The notes beneath the pieces are model-generated. The model searched no databases, had not been told where the DNA came from, and was given only the letters and a program-made list of their open reading frames with translations. From positions 1 to 34,532 of the forward strand of contig JAGBBZ010000032.1 in assembly GCA_017938215.1 (NCBI GenBank): DNA of 34,532 nucleotides, written 5' to 3'. This DNA is from Eubacterium sp. Its GTDB lineage: Bacteria; Bacillota; Clostridia; Lachnospirales; Lachnospiraceae. The position numbers and the translations under genes were made by a program. Shown piece by piece: positions 532 to 11,422 of the stretch; position 1 is the stretch's first letter; every line of letters starts with the position of its first letter.

Positions 532-1764
532 TCACTCCCCCGCCTTGAAGTTATACACTGGCTTAATCACCTTCAATATTTTTGCTGTGGGTGTAATGTT
601 GTTAACAATATCTTCCATATTTTTATATGCCATCGGGCATTCATCCAATGTTGCCTCTCCGATGGAAGTTGTAAAGATTCCCTCCATTTCTTTCTCGAAG
701 TCGCTTACAGAAAATAGTTCCTTTGCTTTTGTCCGGCTGAACAGACGACCAGCTCCGTGAGGCGCCGAATAATTCCACTCTGGATTCCCCTTTCCGACAC
801 AAACCAAACTTCCATCTCTCATATTAATTGGAATCAAAAGTTTCTCTCCCTCTTGGGCAGATACCGCGCCTTTTCGCACAATATTGCTCTCATGGTCAAT
901 GTAGTTATGAATTGTTTCAAAATATGAAAAATCCTGCAAACTCTTTCCATAGAGATGTGTCAAAATCGTCTCTGCGATGGTATATCGATTTTTCGTAGCA
1001 AATTGCTGACAAATCTTCATATCTGCCAGATACTGCTCACGATATTTTCCGGTCAAATAACACAACTCCTTCGGTGTATCCGTTCCCTTTTCTTGGAACT
1101 CTTTCTTTAAGCGCTCGAGGGTTGGTTGAATTTCCTTCCGTCTTCCCTCTGATTTATATTCACGAATGATACGCTCCTGCTCTTCAAAAAGCTCCTCTTT
1201 TCCACAAAGCAAATCATAGGCAAGATTTTGATAATACTCCGCCACCTGCTTTCCCAAATTTCGACTTCCCGTATGAATGACAAGATACGAATCCCCCTCA
1301 TCATCTACATCAATCTCGATAAAATGATTGCCGCCGCCAAGTGTTCCCACGCTTCGCTCCAACCATTTTGTACGTTTCAATCCACGATAACAATGCAACT
1401 CTTGCAACTCCGGATAACGTGCTTTACGACCTTCATGGACTTTTTTGCCCGAAGGGACATAAGCACGAATTATCTCATCCAATGTTGCAAAATCAACTTT
1501 GTCTTTGCCTAATTCCACTGTCAACATACCACATCCGATATCTACACCTACGATATTCGGAATCACCATCTCGCCCAAGTCTGCCGTAAATCCGATGACG
1601 CATCCAGCTCCTGCATGGACATCCGGCATGATACGTATTTTACACCCTTTCACAAAAGGCTGGTCACAGAGTCGTTTCAACTGCAACTCTGCTCCCTCCT
1701 CCATCACATCGGTATACACAATGGCCTCGTTAAAGACCCCTTCTATTTTCTTCACTTTCCTCAC
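532..1764 (-). CDS. rtcB: RtcB-family RNA ligase (RNA repair)
   Basis: A GTP- and Mn2+-dependent ligase that joins 2',3'-cyclic or 3'-phosphate RNA ends to 5'-OH ends. At 410 aa it matches bacterial RtcB. Visible motifs: D75 and C78 in VGVDIGCGM, the GGGNHF motif (N146, H147), H164 in IHTGSRN, H286 in ETIHNYIDHE, all expected for the two-metal site, and PHGAGR with H336, equivalent to the His guanylylated in E. coli RtcB. All key residues are present, so it should be active. It lies only 5 nt behind the slipin gene, with no RtcA cyclase, Ro60 or PrfH gene nearby. The operon context (slipin plus tRNA-like RNA) points to repair of cleaved tRNA or related RNA rather than tRNA splicing; that role is inferred. 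Confidence 0.95.
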   Translation of the reverse strand: MRKVKKIEGVFNEAIVYTDVMEEGAELQLKRLCDQPFVKGCKIRIMPDVHAGAGCVIGFTADLGEMVIPNIVGVDIGCGMLTVELGKDKVDFATLDEIIRAYVPSGKKVHEGRKARYPELQELHCYRGLKRTKWLERSVGTLGGGNHFIEIDVDDEGDSYLVIHTGSRNLGKQVAEYYQNLAYDLLCGKEELFEEQERIIREYKSEGRRKEIQPTLERLKKEFQEKGTDTPKELCYLTGKYREQYLADMKICQQFATKNRYTIAETILTHLYGKSLQDFSYFETIHNYIDHESNIVRKGAVSAQEGEKLLIPINMRDGSLVCVGKGNPEWNYSAPHGAGRLFSRTKAKELFSVSDFEKEMEGIFTTSIGEATLDECPMAYKNMEDIVNNITPTAKILKVIKPVYNFKAGE

Positions 1765-1769
1765 CTTCC

Positions 1770-2867
1770 TTATTTTCCTACAATCTGTGCCAACTGAGTC
1801 AACAGATTTTCATTCGCCCCCACCGTAATGTTCCCAACATTTTCACAGATTTTTTGCAAATATTCCATTTCCTTCAGCTTGTAAAGAGTTTTGTTTTCCT
1901 CCATGAGCCGAGCCGTATTGAGAAGGGAACGAGTGGATGCCACCTCTTCCCGACGAGTAATGACATTGGCCTGGGCGCGTTTTTCCGCAATCAGTACCGT
2001 GTTCATTATGTCTCGGATTTCTCCCGGAAGAATGATGTCTTTCACCCCCGCATCCGCAATTTCAATAAACAAATCCTTTTCCTGCGACTTCAGCTTCTCC
2101 AACGCGTAACGAGTAAGCCCTTCCTTATCTTCCAAAATTTCATCCAGACGATATTTTCCTACATACTCACGCAAAGCAAGCTGGGCTGCCACGTGTAGTT
2201 GTTCCCGATAATTATCAATATCGTTCTTTACAGAAATGTAATCTGTGATGCGGTATTTGCAAATGAAATTGATGCGGAGTGCCACTTTGTCGTGGGTCAG
2301 AATTTCCTGACCGGCAATATCCATTTGCTGCAATCGGGTGTCTACCGTATCCACTTTCACTCTCGTTTTTCCATTCCAGAAATAATACGCTCCCGGCTCC
2401 AGCAAGCGCACGAACTGGTTATCAAAATAAAGACGTCCCTTTTCGTACTCCAAAATATCAAAGCGAGTGTAGTACTTGATTGGAATATGCCGAAATATGT
2501 ACTCTGGAACTTCTGCTGCCACCTCTGGCTCCGCAACGCTTATATTGCGAAACTCATGTTGATCAAACACATTCCAAAATGCGTAACGACCGGCCGGAAG
2601 CACTTCCCGAAAGTTTCCATTGATATAATGGAGAGAAATTTCTTCATCTTTCACTTCCACTTGAACGGTCTGGGAAAGAATTTCCTGATCCTTCAATAGT
2701 ACCGGTAGCAAAATCGTCTCCGACTCCAATGGCTGACAAATATCCAAAATCTCAATTTCCTTTTCACCGTATTCATAATATTTTCCCGGTCCCAATAGTT
2801 TTATGTACATTCCATTTTTTGTTAACAAACCTCTTTCATTTTCCTGAATCACTACTTTTCTTATCAT
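1770..2867 (-). CDS. Slipin-like SPFH/band-7 protein paired with RtcB
   Basis: A 365-aa protein starting MIRKVVIQ; this ATG follows AGAGAGGAAAAAG, whereas the longer reading has no ribosome site. Residues about 172-320 form an SPFH/band-7 domain (TVDTRLQQMDIAGQEILT, then a helical stretch ending in EKRAQANVITRREEV). The N-terminal half has three copies of a short module with core (Y/N)G-x-(Y/F)-x-x-x-L-x-PG-x-Y at about 12-32, 78-99 and 144-165. There is no hydrophobic N-terminal hairpin, unlike classical slipins, so it is probably a soluble oligomeric scaffold. Pairing with rtcB 5 nt downstream and a tRNA-like RNA upstream matches the proposed role of SPFH proteins as cofactors in RNA repair. 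Function is inferred. Confidence 0.88.
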   Translation of the reverse strand: MIRKVVIQENERGLLTKNGMYIKLLGPGKYYEYGEKEIEILDICQPLESETILLPVLLKDQEILSQTVQVEVKDEEISLHYINGNFREVLPAGRYAFWNVFDQHEFRNISVAEPEVAAEVPEYIFRHIPIKYYTRFDILEYEKGRLYFDNQFVRLLEPGAYYFWNGKTRVKVDTVDTRLQQMDIAGQEILTHDKVALRINFICKYRITDYISVKNDIDNYREQLHVAAQLALREYVGKYRLDEILEDKEGLTRYALEKLKSQEKDLFIEIADAGVKDIILPGEIRDIMNTVLIAEKRAQANVITRREEVASTRSLLNTARLMEENKTLYKLKEMEYLQKICENVGNITVGANENLLTQLAQIVGK

Positions 2868-3092
2868 CTCTTTTTCCTCTCTTTCTTTTTGTAACCAATG
2901 TGCCGGCACAGACTGCAACTGCGGCCAGTGGATTGAGTATCATCTTCCAGCCAGCGGAAGGCCCCTTCTTGGGAGTTTCTTTGGCTGACTTTCATTATCA
3001 TACGGTATCCTCCCCGGACAAGGCAGCTACATTCCGCCCACCCTTTGTCTGACAATTGCCAGACAACTTGCCGGAACACGTTACGTTTTTCT
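2868..3092 (-). other. Structured untranslated leader between tRNA-like RNA and slipin gene
   Basis: About 225 nt without a credible gene. Local hairpins on the minus strand: TTGTCTG/CAGACAA with an 8-nt loop (near 3045-3066), CTTCC/GGAAG nested with CAGCCA/TGGCTG (about 2944-2987), and the perfect 10-bp palindrome GTGCCGGCAC (about 2900-2909) 34 nt before the slipin start. No T-run separates it from the tRNA-like RNA, so both are probably on one transcript with slipin-rtcB. It may be a processing site or a translation control element. Confidence 0.5.
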
Positions 3093-3270
3093 TCACCATG
3101 TCGTATGGGTGATGTATCTTTACATCTGAGAGCAGGATTCGAACCTGCACAACACGATTAACAGTCGTGGCGCCAACCAATTGGCATCTCTGGCACAAGG
3201 CTCCTGGCATACGTTTTGGTACTCCTGACGCACCGCGGTGGTTTCATACACCTGCGTTAGGCGACCTTGT
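3093..3270 (-). ncRNA. tRNA-like RNA of the slipin-RtcB locus (tRNA-Asn mimic)
   Basis: The minus strand has a perfect tRNA T arm (GCAGG, TTCGAAT loop, CCTGC; 3132-3148) and a perfect anticodon arm (CACGA, CTGTTAA loop, TCGTG; about 3153-3169) with anticodon GUU. A D-arm-like hairpin GCCAA-TTGG-TTGGC lies at 3172-3185. The acceptor stem is not canonical: only GAGA/TCTC (3187-3190 with 3128-3131) pairs cleanly, and no CCA follows. A 5' domain is closed by CACAAGG/CCTTGTG (3265-3271 with 3194-3200). 3' hairpins follow at 3111-3126 and 3093-3112. Its own promoter is at 3277-3305. It is therefore a tRNA mimic, not a translating tRNA. A cognate tRNA-like RNA for SPFH-RtcB systems was proposed by Burroughs and Aravind (2016). 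Confidence 0.75.
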
Positions 3271-3276
3271 GATTGT

Positions 3277-3305
3277 ATTATAAAAAAAGAAAGGAAAATT
3301 ATCAC
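3277..3305 (-). promoter_or_regulatory. Promoter of tRNA-like RNA / slipin-rtcB operon
   Basis: On the minus strand, GTGATA (3300-3305, 4 of 6 matches), a 17-bp T-rich spacer and a perfect TATAAT (3277-3282). The predicted start, near 3270, falls on the first base of the ACAAGG stem that closes the RNA's 5' domain, which supports both calls. Confidence 0.65.
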
Positions 3306-3307
3306 GG

Positions 3308-3540
3308 AAAAAAAGGTGCGAACTGTCTTGGTTACTTAATCTCCCACTAAAACAGCTAGTGAATTTCTTTTACAGTTCGGAACACACTCTCGTTCGAAAA
3401 ACAACGTAATGGCACCGACCTTACGGTCGTCAAATCGCGCCAAAGACGCTCTTTGAGCGCCAACGTTGTTTAACGGTTCCGTCTCGTAAAAGAAATTCAC
3501 TAGCTGCACATAGTACGCTATTAACTAACCAAGACATATA
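3308..3540 (-). ncRNA. Large branched-hairpin RNA, unidentified
   Basis: About 230 nt that fold back almost completely. Pairs: outer TGTCTTGGTTA/TAACCAAGACA (3526-3536 with 3324-3334), then TTAAT/ATTAA, ACTA/TAGT, a perfect 21-bp helix (3486-3506 with 3353-3373), CGGAAC/GTTCCG, and AACAACGT/ACGTTGTT. A terminal junction carries CGCTC-AAA-GAGCG and CGACC-GUAA-GGTCG, the latter a GNRA tetraloop. On the minus strand the outer helix is followed by seven T residues (3308-3314), and a promoter sits just upstream. It shows no coding potential and matches no RNA class I know. A palindromic mobile element is the main alternative. Confidence 0.55.
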
Positions 3541-3545
3541 TGAAT

Positions 3546-3574
3546 ATAATGTATCGCAACTAAGCACGCATCAA
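3546..3574 (-). promoter_or_regulatory. Candidate promoter of the large hairpin RNA
   Basis: On the minus strand, TTGATG (3569-3574, 4 of 6) and CATTAT (3546-3551, 4 of 6) with a 17-bp spacer. The predicted start, near 3539, is within a few bases of the outer helix of the hairpin RNA. It lies in the 60 nt after the WYL gene stop. Confidence 0.45.
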
Positions 3575-3599
3575 GTTACTTTCTTTTGTATCTACACAC

Positions 3600-4511
3600 C
3601 TAAACACCCCAAACGCGCTGTTGTTTCAATCGTTCTTTGATAAGTTCTACAAAGGATTCAGGTTCGGTTACCCGGACGAATGGTCCGAAGGATAATACCC
3701 GAATTAACAATTCAGTTTCGTCGTCTTTATTATAGAAGATTTTAATGCGATAGTGATCATTGTCTAAGCGTTCTGCTTCTTTTTGAAAGTGAGCAAAATG
3801 CAGCATCACTCGCTCTAGGGCATTTCGCCCATCGTAAAGTTCCATAACAAAAAAGTCCCTGGCGGGTTCTTGTAATCTTTTCAGAAATCGCATCGGGCGT
3901 TCCATCACTTCCACCTCAGCAACACGCGCCACATTGATTATATGTATATGACGAGCACCTTGGAGAAGCACACGGAATTTATCATCCTTTTCTGAGTATT
4001 CCAATCGTGTCGGAACACCGTATACGATAAGTTCCCGACCCTTGCCGCTCTCATACAACAATTTCACTTTCTTCTTATTATGAATGGCAGAAAGTAATTT
4101 CTGGAAATTTTCAATATAGGAAGGATCATTATAGGAGTCTCCGTCCCTGTACTGGTCATACACCACAACATCTTCTGGTGTATATAGGGGGGTGATTTCT
4201 TCGGACATTTCTGGTATCTCGCCAAACAAATGCGCCCGCGGGTCCTGCGACACCGCTTTCAACCATTCCCTTTCAAGATTCGAGATAGGAAGTGCGGGTT
4301 TGTTCATCACTGGACTTTCCATTGACTCCATATCCACAAGCTGCCAACGTTCTTCCTCAAATGCAGGGATAATAGTCAATGCACTTTCCGAAAATCCATA
4401 GGTATCAATGGTCTGCTGCATGGATTCGCGAGTCAGCGTTCCCTCCACAGCCTGCTCCAAGATCTTTGCCACTGCCTGGTAATAGCATCCATATATCTCA
4501 TGAAATATCAT
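3600..4511 (-). CDS. WYL-domain regulator, second of a pair
   Basis: 303 aa starting MIFHEIYG; the ATG at 4511 follows GGGGGTGA, better placed than the upstream TTG. The central part (about 155-235, IHNKKKVKLLYESGKGRELI...YGVPTRLEY) is a WYL fold, a ligand- or nucleic-acid-sensing SH3-like domain. The end (YRIKIFYNKDDETELLIRVLSFGPFVRV) is a WCX-type extension. The N-terminal 120 residues show no clear helix-turn-helix, so it may act as a sensor or partner rather than bind DNA alone. It overlaps the upstream WYL gene by 14 nt, suggesting coupled translation and a heteromer. The next elements downstream are the two RNAs and slipin-rtcB, so control of that RNA-repair operon is a reasonable inference. 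Confidence 0.8.
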   Translation of the reverse strand: MIFHEIYGCYYQAVAKILEQAVEGTLTRESMQQTIDTYGFSESALTIIPAFEEERWQLVDMESMESPVMNKPALPISNLEREWLKAVSQDPRAHLFGEIPEMSEEITPLYTPEDVVVYDQYRDGDSYNDPSYIENFQKLLSAIHNKKKVKLLYESGKGRELIVYGVPTRLEYSEKDDKFRVLLQGARHIHIINVARVAEVEVMERPMRFLKRLQEPARDFFVMELYDGRNALERVMLHFAHFQKEAERLDNDHYRIKIFYNKDDETELLIRVLSFGPFVRVTEPESFVELIKERLKQQRVWGV

Positions 4512-5745
4512 GGTCGTCACCCCCAATCCCGTACATTCGATACATTCTCTTCAAGTCTACGCGGAACATATTTTCCATAATTTTATTGGAAAAATCCATG
4601 GACATAATGCGGCAAATATAGCTTCGTATCCATGGAATCATCTCACTGGTCTCGTACACATCTGCCGTAAAGCGAGCCGTGGATTCATCCAGACGTTCCA
4701 CCTTCCCACAGCGTTTTTCCCGTTCCAAGCGCCCCCAGATATGCTCCTCTCCCAGTCCGATGTGAACGGTAAATTCCACATGTTCCAGTTTTTCATGCCG
4801 ATGACACACCACGCCCCACATATGTTTTTGCAAGCGTGACAATTCCTGGCGCAAGGAATCAAAGGAAACCTCCTCTTCCCGCGCTTTCACTTCTTGTATG
4901 TAATCCAAGCGAATGGAGCAAAAATCCTTTTGTCTCGCATCAAAGGCAATCAAGTGACGACGCCCGTTCTCTGCGCTAACAAAGATGCGAAGAGGTGTGA
5001 TATTTCGCACCGTTTCTTTCTCCATCCGAGGACTGTATTTTTTTATCTCTACGTTACACTTCTTTTGCATTGCCTGCAAAAGTGCGTACAAAACCTCACT
5101 ATCCAGCGCTTGCGTAATGTAGTGATGTTTATACGCCAACACCTTCTCCCGATGTTCCAACCGATCCAAGAGATAACTTCCCACCACGCCACACAGACCG
5201 ATTTCCGAGAAAAAATGAAGGGCATCCCGATACGGCTCCAGTTCCATATCGGTTCCTCTGCGATAATACATTTGCTTACCTTGCTTTTCCTTCAAAACCA
5301 GCCCCATCTTATGGTATTCATTGAGTTTTTTTCGCAACGTGGATTCATCCACCAAGAGAGGCGTCGTAAATCCCACAAAATATTCGTCCAGCTCTTCTAC
5401 AAGTTCCGATAATGTCATGGAAATCTCTGGAGAATCCAAAACATCAAATAAGGCAAAGTGCAAACTGATATCTCCGTCAGTAAAGCTCTTTGCCCGAAAT
5501 GCTTTATAAAACGGATTGCCTTCTGTGGTTCTGGTATCCACGGACAAAAACATGCGCTTTCCTGTTTTCGTCTGATGAAAGCTCATGTAATCGCCCAGAT
5601 AATTTTCAATCCGTCTCCGCTCATTATCGTAGGAGCGGGCACTTTTGCGGTCATACTCGTCTCTGGTTTTGAAACCGTACACATAAAAATCCCGCATGTA
5701 CTCCCGTATCCGCTTAAAGTTTTTGATCCGCTCCGTATATGCCAT
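4498..5745 (-). CDS. WYL-domain transcriptional regulator, first of a pair
   Basis: 415 aa starting MAYTERIKNFK; the ATG at 5745 follows CGGAGGAAC. The middle (about 105-180: MTLSELVEELDEYF...DESTLRKKLNEYHKMGLV...GKQMYYRRG) reads like a winged helix. About 215-315 is the WYL domain (LLQAMQKKCNVEIKKYSPR...NITPLRIFVS...RHLIAFDARQ), followed by a WCX-like region ending in the VETSEMIPWIRSYI-type helix. It overlaps the second WYL gene and follows a membrane-protein gene by 25 nt. WYL regulators are known to control defence and DNA-damage genes; here the neighbours suggest an RNA-damage response. The ligand is unknown. Confidence 0.82.
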   Translation of the reverse strand: MAYTERIKNFKRIREYMRDFYVYGFKTRDEYDRKSARSYDNERRRIENYLGDYMSFHQTKTGKRMFLSVDTRTTEGNPFYKAFRAKSFTDGDISLHFALFDVLDSPEISMTLSELVEELDEYFVGFTTPLLVDESTLRKKLNEYHKMGLVLKEKQGKQMYYRRGTDMELEPYRDALHFFSEIGLCGVVGSYLLDRLEHREKVLAYKHHYITQALDSEVLYALLQAMQKKCNVEIKKYSPRMEKETVRNITPLRIFVSAENGRRHLIAFDARQKDFCSIRLDYIQEVKAREEEVSFDSLRQELSRLQKHMWGVVCHRHEKLEHVEFTVHIGLGEEHIWGRLEREKRCGKVERLDESTARFTADVYETSEMIPWIRSYICRIMSMDFSNKIMENMFRVDLKRMYRMYGIGGDDHDIS

Positions 5746-7711: not shown

Positions 7712-8575
7712 TTACATTTCTAATAATACGTCTGCCAATCGGGCAAACTCCATAAGTCCCAATTTCTCCCCTCTAACGTTTGCGTCAAATCCAGCTTTCT
7801 CGATCGCCTCCGCCACCTGTGCCTTGGAATAAGACAATTCACTGCTATTGGCAATTCCGTTTTGTAACGTTTTTCTTCGCTGATTAAATGACGCCCGAAT
7901 CAATCGGAACATCAATTTTTCATCCTTCACTTCTACTGGTGTCTTCGCCAGACAGTCCAGGCGAATTACCGCACTTCCCACATTTGGCCTTGGCATAAAA
8001 CAATTCGGTGGCACAAAAGCCGCGATGTACGGCTCCGCATAATATTGCACCGCCAAAGAAAGCGCACCACAATCCTTACTTCCCGGCTCCGCCTTCATTC
8101 GATCCGCCACTTCCTTTTGCACCATAACTGTCACATTGGCAAGAGGCACATGGCTTTCGAAAAGTTCCATAATAATCGGAGTGGTAATATAATATGGTAG
8201 ATTCGCTACGACTTTAATCGGTTTTCCCGCATTATATTTATCTGCAATCGCCTGTATATCCTGTTTTAAAATGTCTCCTTGTAACACATCGACATTATCA
8301 TAGGCAGAAAGCGTTTCTTGCAAAATCGGAATCAAATTTTTATCAATCTCTACCGCCAGTACTTGCCTTGCGTGTTCACAAAGATACTGGGTCAATGTTC
8401 CGATTCCCGGTCCGATTTCCAACACAAAATCATCCTTCGTAATCTGTGCCGCATCCACAATCTTATCCAGTACATGGGGATCGATCAAAAAGTTCTGTCC
8501 AAATTTCTTTTTAAATTTAAAATCATGCTTCTGCAGCACTTGTATGGTTTGCTGCGGATTGCTGAGTTTTTCCAT
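7712..8575 (-). CDS. rsmA: 16S rRNA (A1518/A1519-N6) dimethyltransferase KsgA/RsmA
   Basis: Dimethylates two adjacent adenines in helix 45 of 16S rRNA using SAM and acts as a checkpoint in 30S assembly. At 287 aa it has the usual length. Motifs: KKFGQNFLID (about 22-31), the SAM-binding loop LEIGPGIGTLT (about 53-63), acidic VEID, and the catalytic NLPYYI (about 124-129) that flips the adenine. The C-terminal helical domain contains FNQRRKTLQN. The start ATG follows GAGGTGACTT. It lies 18 nt after tatD and 12 nt before the S1 gene, an arrangement common in Clostridia. Confidence 0.96.
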   Translation of the reverse strand: MEKLSNPQQTIQVLQKHDFKFKKKFGQNFLIDPHVLDKIVDAAQITKDDFVLEIGPGIGTLTQYLCEHARQVLAVEIDKNLIPILQETLSAYDNVDVLQGDILKQDIQAIADKYNAGKPIKVVANLPYYITTPIIMELFESHVPLANVTVMVQKEVADRMKAEPGSKDCGALSLAVQYYAEPYIAAFVPPNCFMPRPNVGSAVIRLDCLAKTPVEVKDEKLMFRLIRASFNQRRKTLQNGIANSSELSYSKAQVAEAIEKAGFDANVRGEKLGLMEFARLADVLLEM

Positions 8576-8593
8576 AAGTCACCTCATTTTTCT

Positions 8594-9364
8594 CTATCCT
8601 AACATGCGATACAATCGTTTGGCATTTTCCTCCGTTATCGCAATCACTTCTTCTTTTGTCATCCCTTTCAATCGGGCGATTTCCTCGGCTACATAAAACA
8701 AATTCGTGGAATCATTGCGCTTCCCACGATTTGGCTCTGGTGCCAAATACGGACAATCCGTTTCCAAAACAATATGTTCCAATGGAATATCTTCTACGGT
8801 TTCTTTCAACTTGCGACCATTTTTGAATGTAACAACGCCACCAACACCGATGAAATACCCCATCTTCACAAACTCTCTTGCCAATTCTTTGGAGTAGGAA
8901 TAACAGTGAATGACGCCACCACACTCGTAAGCTTTTGTATCCTTAATGATCTTCATCGTTTCTTCCGCCGCTTCGCGACTATGAAAAATAATAGGAAGAT
9001 CCACTTCCTTCGCCAACGCAATTTGTTTTTCAAACCAAACTTTTTGCACCGCCGGCTCCGGCTCCTTCCAATAATAATCCAGTCCAATTTCACCGATGGC
9101 TAGCACCTTTTTCTCTGATGCATTTTGGCGAATCCATTCCAAGCCTTCTTCGGTCAAATCCCCGGTCTCACTGGGATGTACCCCAAGAGCGGCGTAGACA
9201 TGATCGTATTTTTTTGCCAACGAGAGCGCCGCCTTACTGGTGGCAATATCAGCCCCCACCGTAACCACGGTGCCAATTCCCTGCTTTGGAAAGTCCGTCA
9301 AAAGGGCGTCCCGATCTTCATTAAATGCCTCGTCATCGTAGTGACTGTGCGTATCAAATATCAT
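8594..9364 (-). CDS. TatD-family metal-dependent hydrolase / deoxyribonuclease
   Basis: 256 aa starting MIFDTHSHYDD; the ATG follows GTGAGGAAAACT, and upstream extension would run through the hairpin at 9403-9447. Metal-binding TIM-barrel residues are visible: the two His of DTHSH (residues 5-8), Glu in GEIGLDYYW (about 93), His in FHSREA (about 129), His in HCYS (about 153) and Asp in ETDCPYL (about 204). Family members are 3'-5' exonucleases acting on DNA or RNA ends. It sits between metG and ksgA, the usual Firmicute order. Confidence 0.93.
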   Translation of the reverse strand: MIFDTHSHYDDEAFNEDRDALLTDFPKQGIGTVVTVGADIATSKAALSLAKKYDHVYAALGVHPSETGDLTEEGLEWIRQNASEKKVLAIGEIGLDYYWKEPEPAVQKVWFEKQIALAKEVDLPIIFHSREAAEETMKIIKDTKAYECGGVIHCYSYSKELAREFVKMGYFIGVGGVVTFKNGRKLKETVEDIPLEHIVLETDCPYLAPEPNRGKRNDSTNLFYVAEEIARLKGMTKEEVIAITEENAKRLYRMLG

Positions 9365-9402
9365 AGTTTTCCTCACTTTGCCTTCGCGTATATAATCAGA
9401 AA

Positions 9403-9447
9403 CCCAACGACACCAACCAAGGAGCTGTGCCCTTTGGTGCCGTTGGG
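9403..9447 (-). terminator. Strong hairpin between metG and tatD
   Basis: A 14-bp stem with a single G-U pair (9403-9416 with 9434-9447) and further AAGG/CCTT pairing in the loop. On the minus strand it is followed by TTTCTGATTATAT, a weak T-tract. It may be a leaky metG terminator or a processing hairpin. Confidence 0.55.
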
Positions 9448-9469
9448 GATACAATACTTATTTAAACAA

Positions 9470-11422
9470 TTAGCAAACCTCTGCGCCTGCAGGCATTGGT
9501 TTCTCCGGTGTCATCAATGCAAGATTACCCTCGGCATCTTCCGCGCAAAGAAGCATTCCTTCCGAAAGAACACCAGCCAACTTCGCCGGTTTCAGGTTAA
9601 CAAGAACCAGCACTTTTTTGCCTACCATTTCTTCCGGTGTGTAATGTGCTTTAATACCAGATACGATTTGTTTCACCTGACTTCCAATGCGTACCTGGGA
9701 GCAAAGAAGTTTTTTGGATTTTTTCACTTCTTCGCAAGCGATAATCTCGCCTACCTGGAACTGCATTTTCATAAAGTCATCAAAGGTAATTTCTTCTTTG
9801 GGTTCGATGTCAATGACATCACCAGGTGCTGCCTCTTCCTCATCAGTCGCCTGTTTGTACGTCTCATCGATATGTTTCATAAATTCCTCTACGTCAAGAC
9901 GCGCAAAGAGAATCTCTGGTTTTTCTACCACTTTTGTGCCAGATTTGTAATCGCCGGCTTTCAATGTCTCCAGTTCACCCTTTTCGGATACAATCTGTGC
10001 CAAAATCTTCTCTGAAGTTTCCGGCATAAAGGACTCAAGCAATGTTGCACCCACACGGATACCATCCATAAGATTGTAAAGGACCGTTGCAAGACGTGGT
10101 TTTGTCTCTTCTTCTTTTGCCAACACCCAAGGCATGGTCTCATCAATGTATTTATTGCAACGTTTAAACACAGTAAAGATTTCCGTGATAGCGTCTGCCA
10201 CTCGAAGTTTCTCCATTTTTTCTGCCACTTTCGCTGGCGCCGCATTGATTACTGCTTTCAAATCATCATCAACGTCTTCTGCCACACCGGTATCTGTCAC
10301 CACACCGTCAAAATATTTATTAGACATGGAAATGGTACGGTTTACCAAGTTTCCAAGAGTATTTGCCAAGTCAGAGTTCATGCGCTCTGCCATGAGCTCC
10401 CAAGTTACCACACCATCGTTTTCAAATGGCATCTCGTGAAGCACGAAATAGCGAACGGCATCTACGCCAAACTCATTGACAAGGTCATCGGCATAGAGAA
10501 CATTCCCCTTACTCTTACTCATTTTTCCGTCTCCCTGCAACAACCAAGGATGTCCGAAAATCTGCTTTGGCAATGGCTCACCAAGTGCCATCAGGATAAT
10601 TGGCCAATAAATCGTATGGAAACGAAGAATGTCTTTTCCGATCAAGTGAAGATCTGCCGGCCAGAATTTGCCATACATCTCATCGCTATTACCATCCACA
10701 TCATAACCAAGTCCGGTGATGTAGTTGCTCAGCGCGTCCATCCAAACGTACACGATGTGACCCGGATCAAAATCTACCGGGATTCCCCAGGTAAAGCTGG
10801 TACGGGATACACAAAGATCCTGAAGTCCCGGCAAAAGGAAATTGTTCATCATCTCGTTTTTACGGGATTCCGGCTGAATAAACTCCGGATGTGTATTAAT
10901 GTGTTCAATCAATTTGTCCTGATATTTGCTCAGTTTCAAAAAATATGCTTCTTCCTTCGCCGGCTGGCAGTCTCTGCCACAGTCCGGGCATTTTCCATCT
11001 ACTAACTGAGATGGGGTAAAGAAAGACTCACAAGGAGTACAGTACATACCCTCGTAATGACCTTTATAAATATCGCCCTGATCGTAGAGCTTTTTAAACA
11101 TTTTCTGAACCTGTTTTTCGTGATCTTCATCCGTAGTACGGATAAATTTGTCGTAAGAGGTATTCATGAGATCCCAGATTCTCTTAATCTCTGTAGATAC
11201 ATCATCTACAAATTCCTTCGGTGTAATGCCAGCTTCCCCAGCCTTCAACTCAACTTTCTGTCCATGCTCGTCGGTTCCTGTCTGGAATCGAACGTCATAG
11301 CCCTGATTTCTCTTATATCGCACAATCGCATCCGCAAGTACGATCTCATAGGTGTTACCAATATGTGGTTTACCTGATGTATAGGCAATGGCTGTTGTCA
11401 AATAATATGGTTTGTTTGCCAT
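9470..11422 (-). CDS. metG: Methionyl-tRNA synthetase with C-terminal tRNA-binding domain
   Basis: Charges tRNA-Met with methionine. 650 aa, full length. The class I signatures are HIGN (residues 20-23) and KMSKSKGN (about 300). A zinc-knuckle insert is seen as CTPCESFF...CPDCGRDC (about 127-150). The last ~110 residues (FDDFMKMQFQVGEI...) are an EMAP-II/Trbp111-like OB fold that binds tRNA and dimerises. The start follows GGAGGAAAACAAAC. Its own strong promoter at 11489-11517 leaves a ~60-nt leader, too short for a T-box. The hairpin at 9403-9447 follows it. Confidence 0.97.
   Translation of the reverse strand: MANKPYYLTTAIAYTSGKPHIGNTYEIVLADAIVRYKRNQGYDVRFQTGTDEHGQKVELKAGEAGITPKEFVDDVSTEIKRIWDLMNTSYDKFIRTTDEDHEKQVQKMFKKLYDQGDIYKGHYEGMYCTPCESFFTPSQLVDGKCPDCGRDCQPAKEEAYFLKLSKYQDKLIEHINTHPEFIQPESRKNEMMNNFLLPGLQDLCVSRTSFTWGIPVDFDPGHIVYVWMDALSNYITGLGYDVDGNSDEMYGKFWPADLHLIGKDILRFHTIYWPIILMALGEPLPKQIFGHPWLLQGDGKMSKSKGNVLYADDLVNEFGVDAVRYFVLHEMPFENDGVVTWELMAERMNSDLANTLGNLVNRTISMSNKYFDGVVTDTGVAEDVDDDLKAVINAAPAKVAEKMEKLRVADAITEIFTVFKRCNKYIDETMPWVLAKEEETKPRLATVLYNLMDGIRVGATLLESFMPETSEKILAQIVSEKGELETLKAGDYKSGTKVVEKPEILFARLDVEEFMKHIDETYKQATDEEEAAPGDVIDIEPKEEITFDDFMKMQFQVGEIIACEEVKKSKKLLCSQVRIGSQVKQIVSGIKAHYTPEEMVGKKVLVLVNLKPAKLAGVLSEGMLLCAEDAEGNLALMTPEKPMPAGAEVC

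Follow-up and report, generated by a model that had tools for sequence, protein, structure and literature searches.

Conserved WYL regulators, a promoter site and a structured RNA precede RNA-repair genes in Clostridia, suggesting a dedicated repair switch

Introduction

RNA-repair modules in which an SPFH/slipin protein is combined with the RNA ligase RtcB and a tRNA-like RNA were reportedly described by Burroughs and Aravind in 2016 (NAR 44:8525). In the rsr-yrlBA-rtcBA system of Salmonella, RtcB is similarly accompanied by a scaffold protein and by non-coding RNAs that carry a tRNA-like domain, and the regulator of this system responds to damaged tRNA (PMC7790460). That regulator, RtcR, is a CARF-domain enhancer-binding activator. 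In Anabaena, deletion of trcR raises the transcripts of rtcB and of a distant slipin in a translation-stress response; TrcR, a repressor, belongs to a different protein family, and neither a WYL pair nor an RNA of the kind considered below is described in the accessible text (PMC10272220). The closest studied pair of WYL regulators is PafBC of mycobacteria, for which ssDNA, but not the ssRNA tried, acts as an activating ligand (PMC11804915).

Here we analyse a stretch of 34,532 nucleotides from Eubacterium sp. (contig JAGBBZ010000032.1; hereafter, the window), in which two WYL genes precede slipin and RtcB. The succession of conserved regulators, a highly conserved promoter site and a structured RNA ahead of RNA-repair genes suggests a dedicated switch for the repair of broken RNA, in the window and in many of its relatives in Clostridia.

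Organization and conservation of the locus

All six elements listed in the initial annotation are indeed arranged in series on one strand, in the order WYL1, WYL2, hairpin, tRNA-like element, slipin and RtcB (Table 1). WYL1 and WYL2 share a 14-nt overlap, and the N-terminal extension of slipin holds repeated L-PG-Y blocks. The 3' RNA domain and the operator with its -10 box were not part of that annotation. Slipin next to RtcB and a tRNA-like RNA are shared with the slipin-RtcB modules, and the RlaP nucleotidyltransferase is found near some of the relatives studied here. As far as could be checked, the additions are the WYL pair, an operator and promoter with unlinked targets, and a ~400-nt RNA with a covarying 3' domain. 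Among the literature matches listed, there is no report of a WYL pair with slipin/SPFH, RtcB, DUF2828, TROVE or RlaP; Burroughs and Aravind 2016 might mention WYL genes.

Table 1. Features of the locus in the window, ordered from WYL1 to RtcB
Feature	Positions	Strand	Profile or model match
WYL1	4498-5745	-	Pfam WYL 8.9e-8
WYL2	3600-4511	-	WCX 20.4 bits, 6.5e-4 (under the curated cut-off)
Long hairpin insert, between WYL2 stop and operator, outside the conserved system	3324-3536	-	
Operator TTCGCA-N-CTTTTTTTCCGTG, 0 mismatches, proposed site of the WYL pair, predicted -52 to -33	3303-3322	-	
-10 box TATAAT, 20 nt past the operator	3277-3282	-	
Large RNA, ~400 nt, promoter to slipin start, 5' end predicted ~7 nt past the -10 box	2868-3270	-	
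tRNA-like part of the large RNA	3124-3193	-	Rfam tRNA 39.5 bits
T-arm GCAGG-TTCGAAT-CCTGC	3132-3148	-	
Conserved 3' RNA domain, core GCCUUG...GGAUACCG, internal loop CCA/CCG	2911-3043	-	61.9 bits (window itself among the model's sequences)
Slipin (SPFH/Band 7)	1770-2867	-	Pfam Band_7 2.2e-25; stomatin 4.7e-20 (profile A1)
RtcB RNA ligase	532-1764	-	Pfam RtcB 1.8e-61

The best 80 of 150 relatives were kept for comparison. One carrier, Oscillibacter valericigenes Sjm18-20 (L109), is culturable. Of the 67 slipin loci with at least 2.7 kb of upstream DNA, 57 have the WYL pair no more than 6 kb from slipin, co-directionally in 55 and in the opposite direction in two (L138 and L142), and eight of the remaining ten genomes encode WYL1 elsewhere (E 6.8e-173 or better). 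Clear WYL1 relatives have RtcB on the same stretch in 10/11 loci, the window excluded. These counts support the earlier proposal of a WYL pair dedicated to slipin/RtcB loci. The proposal was to fall if the WYL genes or the RNAs were missing beside most slipin-rtcB pairs; the opposite was found, as most loci retain the WYL pair and the RNA with its T-arm is present in 75/78 (see below). RtcB itself follows slipin at a distance of 2 kb or less in 46 of 70 loci. Since loci with slipin, the RNA and WYL genes are common without a nearby RtcB, and only 7 of 22 genomes without an adjacent RtcB have a match anywhere, RtcB is not an obligatory part of the system.

The hairpin had been taken for a second large RNA of the system, a role that its distribution contradicts. 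Its arms (3324-3373 and 3486-3536) fold with a z-score of -11, reached by 0 of 100 shuffles. Operator and WYL2 stop codon are at most 70 nt apart in 55/64 loci, the hairpin core is found in two copies in the window's genome and in none of 59 other genomes of the family, and the seven other large gaps inspected at this place contain unrelated sequence. The hairpin is thus an unconserved insert; no exact pattern match to this core was found in viral contigs.

The WYL pair and its predicted operator

WYL1 consists of a putative winged-helix-like region (approximately residues 100-185), a WYL domain (217-287) and a WCX-like C-terminus, and its profile matches to PafB/PafC and to ArsR-type winged helices are all weak (E 0.008-1). 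Structure models of WYL1 (mean pLDDT 73.3) and WYL2 (AlphaFold, 83.5) resemble both activators and repressors of the WYL class in PDB. The top Foldseek matches are to activators, namely, DriD 8tp8 (3.8e-11) and PafBC 9fnd (1.9e-10) for WYL1, and PafBC 6sj9 (7.0e-9) and DriD 9pfq (1.3e-8) for WYL2. Overlapping genes, these folds and the presence of both genes at 57/67 slipin loci identify two tandem WYL-WCX proteins, an arrangement shared with PafBC. Unlike in PafBC and DriD, no HTH was recognised in WYL2. WYL1 and WYL2 probably represent a PafBC/DriD-like pair which is predicted to bind the operator and to run, probably as an activator, a small RNA-repair regulon.

The site TTCGCA-N-CTTTTTTTYCGTG is found upstream of the RNA in 76/77 slipin loci, with no mismatch in 54 of the 76 and with at most two in 71. 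The best -10 match follows at 20 nt in 67/78 loci, and a -35 hexamer is weak at best, with four of six matching positions in 26/78 promoters and more in none. WYL folds, a -10 box with at best a weak -35 and a motif at fixed distance are also characteristic of PafBC of mycobacteria and DriD of Caulobacter. The differences are in the motif itself, in its position, predicted at -52 to -33 here versus -26 in the PafBC type, and in the targets, which here belong to RNA repair. Control of the RtcR type is not matched at the locus: the linked regulators are WYL proteins instead of a CARF-domain sigma-54 activator, the promoter has a sigma-70-type -10 box, and slipin takes the place of Rsr.

A repressor of the BrxR/CapW kind, blocking the promoter until freed by a nucleic-acid ligand, would also be consistent with some of these features. 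The WYL models match BrxR and CapW (both found for WYL2), the operator overlies the -35 region, and the -35 scores are slightly above those of control positions, of which 251/1560 reach at least four of six. Moreover, at least 42/78 promoters have an extended -10 (TGn), and such promoters could thus work without a -35 and be repressed. The lack of any good -35, the fixed spacing between operator and -10 and the activators DriD and PafBC as top structural matches argue for activation instead. BrxR and CapW are single-gene homodimers, whereas WYL1 and WYL2 are nearly always two proteins, as in PafBC. Repression is therefore considered unlikely, and a PafBC/DriD-like activator is preferred.

Unlinked sites and DUF2828 relatives

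Sites with at most one mismatch are present in six of 146 genomes of the order and in three of 398 genomes of the phylum (the window's genome included in both), and all of these genomes encode WYL1; a reversed control pattern had no match among the 398. Eight of the 14 order genomes with a WYL1 match have no site at this threshold, and G400 combines a strong WYL1 (1.3e-129) with no site at one mismatch. Co-occurrence of the site with WYL1 is largely linkage at one locus, and clear unlinked targets are few.

An unlinked site precedes an RNA and DUF2828 unit in G008, another is located ~100 bp upstream of RtcB in G152, and L080 has two sites, one ahead of DUF2828 and one ahead of slipin. Recurrence of the conserved site at unlinked units supports a regulatory role of the WYL pair. 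It is improbable that the operator is instead bound by another factor, or is a strong core-promoter element, with the WYL genes linked for other reasons. WYL-site binding is a prediction, and the genome of L079 has the site without a WYL1 match, as this explanation would have it. However, sites are confined to WYL1 genomes in both samples and persist in genomes whose WYL genes lie on a separate contig; L130 lacks both site and WYL1 match, and L058 and L060, with more divergent WYL1, show altered site-like stretches.

The nameable targets, slipin, DUF2828 and RtcB, are all RNA-repair-type units. No DNA-repair gene was seen among them, although for some of the second sites the target could not be named. 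This composition argues against ssDNA as the ligand, that is, against a DNA-damage response carrying RNA repair rather than a direct sensor of RNA damage. By contrast, the activation of PafBC by ssDNA but not by the ssRNA tried (PMC11804915) and the titles of matching PDB entries, which name ssDNA-bound DriD and CapW, are in line with an ssDNA ligand. Such a ligand is a serious possibility, though short of probable.

Slipin-less relatives (L053, L055 and L166) encode proteins with Pfam DUF2828 and DUF7788, preceded by a different RNA-like leader (six DUF2828 RNAs). An assignment of DUF2828 to TROVE/Ro60 found no support, with no Pfam TROVE match in the three loci; Ro60 entries were also absent from the PDB sequence matches for L055. 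In L099, there is no operator ahead of DUF2828 on its contig.

The large RNA

The tRNA-like RNA of the initial annotation is present, but it is not a separate element and forms the middle of a larger RNA. The distance between operator and slipin is 357-581 nt in 67/78 loci, and the RNA contains conserved sequence blocks. Judged by eye, the tRNA-like part in the window has an Asn-type anticodon arm and a mispaired acceptor arm; the latter, a negative ARAGORN result and the general retention of the T-arm in relatives led to the rejection of an ordinary tRNA gene. The T-arm is the sole tRNA-like feature general in relatives, where it is perfect over 5 bp in 75 of 78 RNAs, compared to 10 of 1560 mononucleotide shuffles.

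Covariation supports the structure of the 3' domain. Alignment A4 contains 68 of the 75 sequences of this domain (L052, L079, L107, L129, L138, L142 and L146 were omitted), and L084, L103 and L110, with no anchor match, are outside the set. In the 68 sequences, 88.5% of cells are paired, compared to 64.7% after shuffling; two-sided changes affect 559 cells versus 178, and the covariation score is 0.663 versus 0.227, with none of 500 shuffles reaching the real value in any of the three measures. Simply counting the pairs that show two-sided changes gives 26/30, a value close to that of shuffles (mean 23.3, with 26 reached in 16/500). RNA model R1 recovers L052, L079, L138, L142, L084 and L103, and L110 weakly. 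It also matches L062 and the operator-less L130, so that the RNA is present in both, and gives no match in L053, L055, L061 and L166. Matches in genomes G023, G117 and G125 are weak, and a search with a stricter filter overlooked G016, although its locus L062 otherwise matches R1. A long-range helix between 5' GCAAGG and 3' CCUUGC was considered and rejected: pairing is 5.11/6 versus 5.07 (sd 0.03) in shuffles, and 74 RNAs contain 27 perfect helices versus a mean of 25 in partner shuffles.

Scanning three slipin loci and L069 against Rfam found no family for the large RNA. Scans at gathering scores covered the window, L052-L055 and L061-L063, and gave tRNA matches in the window, L053 and L055, a glycine riboswitch in L063, a group II intron in L062 and, in L054, an ordinary tRNA-Thr, with nothing else. 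Permissive scans of three stretches gave, besides the tRNA in the window, sub-threshold matches only, including short matches to tmRNA; the best sub-threshold match was ssnA in L069 (E 0.03, 18.7 of 37.3 bits).

The position of the RNA, which lies wholly downstream of the promoter and ahead of the slipin start codon, and its persistence in L130 and L062 would suit a cis-acting slipin leader, riboswitch-like or an attenuator. Its length and its nearly universal T-arm, the tRNA-like partner RNA reportedly associated with SPFH modules and the replacement of this RNA by a different leader where DUF2828 takes the place of slipin point rather to a trans-acting partner, and the leader function is regarded as somewhat doubtful.

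Discussion

The reading that we favour, with some confidence, is a regulated RNA-repair operon composed of a WYL heteromer of the PafBC/DriD kind, a structured RNA, slipin and RtcB, together with a small regulon. WYL1 and WYL2 would together make up a heteromeric transcription factor that is probably an activator. Its WYL domains would receive a damage-derived ligand, either a fragment of nucleic acid or an end carrying a 2',3'-cyclic phosphate. The ligand-bound pair would then occupy the operator in substitution for a -35 box and bring in the housekeeping RNA polymerase at the -10 box, located 20 nt further downstream. The resulting transcript would start with the ~400-nt structured RNA, with its T-arm module and 3' domain, and continue into slipin and RtcB. 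The RNA may be the cognate partner of slipin, which as a scaffold would unite broken RNA with RtcB. In related units, a DUF2828 protein and another RNA would replace slipin, and unlinked units driven by the same site would constitute the regulon.

More tentatively, the PafBC-like heterodimer could be a dedicated sensor of broken RNA in Clostridia, switching on RtcB and interchangeable RNP scaffolds through a near-invariant site. The scaffolds would be slipin with the 400-nt T-arm RNA and DUF2828 with a repeat-built RNA. If true, this would be the RNA-damage counterpart of the DNA-damage response of PafBC.

The analysis yields a pair of candidate regulators, a 20-nt site open to mutation, a short list of regulon members and a model of the RNA whose helices were tested. 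Thus, control of RtcB-type repair outside the RtcR group, as well as the roles of slipin and the RNA, become directly testable. Should the ligand prove to be RNA, RNA damage would join DNA damage and phage defence among the processes in which WYL domains act as sensors.

WYL regulator pair at slipin loci

The six elements that the initial annotation had placed in series on one strand all map to the minus strand of the window, running from 5745 to 532, and the upstream neighbours (a 331-aa membrane protein, an S1 protein and KsgA) look unrelated to the system. Best PDB matches of the AlphaFold models are PafBC and DriD for WYL2 (mean pLDDT 83.5), and DriD and PafBC for WYL1 (73.3). Full-chain superpositions are loose (TM-scores 0.13-0.52), so the resemblance of WYL1 and WYL2 reflects fold membership, not close kinship; the DriD C-domain alone gives TM-scores of up to 0.73, by target length.

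Features of the window and of related loci
Feature	Source	Coordinates	Strand	Remarks
WYL1	window	5745-4498	minus	first in transcription order; Pfam WYL
WYL2	window	4511-3600	minus	sub-threshold WCX match, its sole Pfam match
Long hairpin	window	3536-3324	minus	between WYL2 and promoter-like block
Promoter-like block	window	3322-3277	minus	3' of hairpin, 5' of RNA
RNA of about 400 nt	window	about 3270-2868	minus	5' of slipin
Slipin	window	2867-1770	minus	Pfam Band_7
RtcB	window	1764-532	minus	last in transcription order; Pfam RtcB
RNA-like leader before DUF2828	L055	8570-8945
RNA-like leader before DUF2828	L053	7447-7820
RNA-like leader before DUF2828	L080	5336-5951
RNA-like leader before DUF2828	L166	8440-8775
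Second hairpin copy	L005 (G000 contig C19)	about 1440-1560		common core, unrelated long stems

Slipin relatives were collected by scanning with an alignment of three slipins, and the best 80 of 150 were kept; by title they are mostly Clostridia MAGs, two being from Fusobacteriaceae and Erysipelotrichaceae. The proposal of a dedicated WYL pair is borne out among them: both genes lie within 6 kb of slipin in 57 of the 67 loci for which 2.7 kb or more of upstream sequence is available, pointing in the direction of slipin in 55 and oppositely in two (L138, L142), and at least one of the two is present in seven further loci with shorter flanks. For eight of the ten loci lacking a nearby pair, a strong WYL1 is found elsewhere in the genome (12 genomes were searched and 10 were positive, two of these, L106 and L093, representing short-flank loci); WYL1 was not found anywhere in the searched genomes of L079 and L130. 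Some of the distant cases could be contig breaks. Four loci (L076, L122, L124, L128) have about 8 kb of upstream sequence, yet no WYL pair nearby. Slipin and WYL1 are about 26 kb apart on one contig in the genome of L144, and the unlinked WYL pair in that of L124 adjoins an RtcB gene. A distant WYL1-like match in L066 falls within an 892-aa open frame, with a WYL2-like match just 3' on the same strand (8366-10873); this frame is perhaps a fused WYL pair, like some PafBC.

Operator and promoter

Alignment of 46 of the 64 WYL2-slipin intergenic regions, those of 400-600 nt, revealed a near-invariant block directly 3' of the WYL2 stop. The 1.6 kb before slipin contain the operator, TTCGCA-N-CTTTTTTTYCGTG, in 76 of the 77 loci whose upstream sequence reaches 500 nt or more; it has no mismatch in 54, one in 10, two in seven, three in three and four in two. 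It is also present at slipin-less WYL loci, including the divergent arrangement of L055. In 67 of 78 promoters (the 76 loci, the window and L052), 20 nt separate the operator end from the best -10 match, most commonly TAAAAT or TATAAT. At a spacing of 15-19 nt, TTGACA is matched at four of six positions in 26 of 78 promoters and never better, slightly above control positions inside the RNA (at least 4/6 in 251 of 1560). We read this arrangement as a promoter in which a bound factor would substitute for the -35 contact. The main alternative is an extended -10 promoter under repression, and an extended -10 is present in at least 42 of the 78 promoters.

Across 146 genomes of the order, sites with at most one mismatch were found in six (seven sites), all six with WYL1. 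The other eight order genomes with a WYL1 match, in most of which this WYL1 is divergent, yielded no such site; altered site-like stretches are present in L058 and L060. The 11 two-mismatch matches, all in genomes without WYL1, do not rise above the reversed control (18 matches at up to two mismatches). Among 398 genomes of the phylum, sites with at most one mismatch occur in three, all with WYL1, and the control pattern in none; WYL1-profile matches are found in 12, eight of them weaker than 1e-50, and G400 in this sample has a strong WYL1, yet no site at up to one mismatch. The genome of the window is counted in both samples.

Co-occurrence of site and WYL1 is partly explained by linkage, and unlinked sites are stronger evidence that the operator follows WYL1. 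G008 carries a second site in the interior of a different contig, where an RNA-like leader and then a DUF2828 gene follow it, and in G152 a site lies about 100 bp before RtcB, the slipin locus being elsewhere and without RtcB. Sites with at most one mismatch were present in 19 of 26 selected genomes (control 0). No convincing target was found for the second sites in G163 and G171, and those in G169 and G170 (C6) are near a contig end. In the genome of L106, a second operator is followed by an RNA-like stretch and then by the gene for a protein of 683 aa without a Pfam match (L216, 1500-3990), a possible further regulon member.

Structured RNA preceding slipin

The distance from operator to slipin is 357-581 nt in most loci (67 of 78) and longer in the other 11. 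Of the tRNA-like part, the T-arm is general: a perfect 5-bp arm with a TTCRANY loop is kept in 75 of 78 RNAs, versus 10 of 1560 mononucleotide shuffles. The tRNA shape beyond the T-arm is not general in relatives; among the window, L052 and L062, the three slipin loci scanned, an Rfam tRNA match at gathering score is confined to the window, and further matches occur in L053 and L055, which are of the DUF2828 kind. The predicted fold of the 3' domain comprises 30 pairs (68 aligned sequences). Of all cells, 88.5% are paired; shuffles give 64.7% and slid controls 40-47%. Two-sided changes are present in 559 cells versus 178 in shuffles, and the covariation score is 0.663 versus 0.227, values reached by 0 of 500 shuffles in all three cases. 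The structure was derived from the tested alignment itself, which biases these figures in its favour; the margin is large. The number of pairs with any two-sided change separates poorly (26 of 30, shuffle 23.3, reached by 16 of 500). A covariance model of the domain (R1) finds it before slipin in loci outside the training set, including L130, with weak matches in L062 and L110; over the 146 whole genomes, strong matches are confined to the genome of the window and G008. An association of slipin with a tRNA-like RNA was reportedly described by Burroughs and Aravind in 2016, and we regard the novelty of the present system relative to it with reserve.

RtcB, DUF2828 and other partners

Loci that lack slipin, too, combine the WYL pair with RtcB. 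WYL1 matches were found in 14 of the 146 order genomes. RtcB is on the same stretch in 10 of the 13 fetched (window excluded), being divergent in three of these (28-32% identity), about 3.5 kb away in L059 and matched only over residues 155-410 in L053; it is missing from L057 and from L065 and L066, the last two being distant relatives of WYL1. RtcB lies within 2 kb downstream of slipin in only 46 of 70 loci. It had no match in 15 of 22 genomes picked for non-adjacent RtcB and was matched in all four comparison genomes having it adjacent, counts that rest on incomplete draft genomes. The slipin-RNA-WYL core may have partners other than RtcB. An RlaP nucleotidyltransferase (Pfam PF10127) is encoded directly after RtcB in L055 (5053-5808) and directly after slipin in L144 (9119-9886). 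WYL1 copies next to an RtcB gene look broken or reduced in L061 (4364-8903), as does the DUF2828 gene there, and in L063 (7719-7982), which suggests decay of the module in certain lineages.

A DUF2828/DUF7788 protein occupies the position of slipin in L053 and L055, and L061 holds the seemingly broken DUF2828 copy; in the phylum sample, a further case has DUF2828 (G263) and another has slipin (G504). By eye, the six DUF2828 leaders contain a repeated stem with AAARRYRC..ACAGCMA, and three have a T-arm of at least four pairs. In L055, L053, L080 and L166, two to several such stem repeats, with a CUUGU partner, are seen per leader under the same operator. Such a leader is possibly a Y-RNA-like multi-site binding RNA. 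R1 has no match in L053, L055, L061 and L166 and the leaders look repeat-built, which suggests that the two scaffold proteins, slipin and DUF2828, each have a partner RNA of their own under a shared site.

The N-terminal extension of slipin (window 2400-2867) shows, by eye, repeated L-PG-Y-like blocks, and L126 (3858-5732) gives three successive matches to the N-terminal part, reminiscent of repeat-built SPFH scaffolds.

The long hairpin

The hairpin of the window is very stable (z -11), and it had been proposed as a second large RNA of the system. This did not hold: the gap from the WYL2 stop to the operator is at most 70 nt in 55 of 64 loci (median 3; 277 in the window), and no copy of the hairpin core was found in 59 other genomes of the family, the fetched loci or viral contigs. 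Seven of the eight other larger gaps hold unrelated terminators, repeats or plain sequence, and in L080 a DUF2828 unit lies in the gap, under an operator of its own. Folding stability exceeds that of mononucleotide shuffles in six of the seven inspected gaps (z -3 to -17), L112 being the exception; stable inserts are therefore no rarity at this position, though mutually unlike. A second copy of the core, with different arms, is on another contig of the genome of the window, by eye before a Y-family DNA polymerase-like gene; the folded common core reads GTTAAAYAACGT...ACGTTRTTTTTCGAACG.GAGTGTGT.

Relation to known systems

The analysis shows the conservation of the parts, the geometry of the site, its unlinked occurrences and the structure of the RNA. 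The WYL pair would bind the operator, would activate the promoter and may sense a damage signal. The closest studied pair is PafBC, which is activated by ssDNA but not by the ssRNA tested and which brings in sigma-A polymerase through 'sigma adaptation' (PMC11804915). The analogous operon of Salmonella is reported to respond to damaged tRNA via RtcR (PMC7790460). There is precedent for controlling slipin and RtcB together, since deletion of the regulator TrcR in Anabaena is reported to raise transcripts of both rtcB and a slipin gene (PMC10272220). For such joint control, the WYL pair with its site seems to represent an alternative solution.
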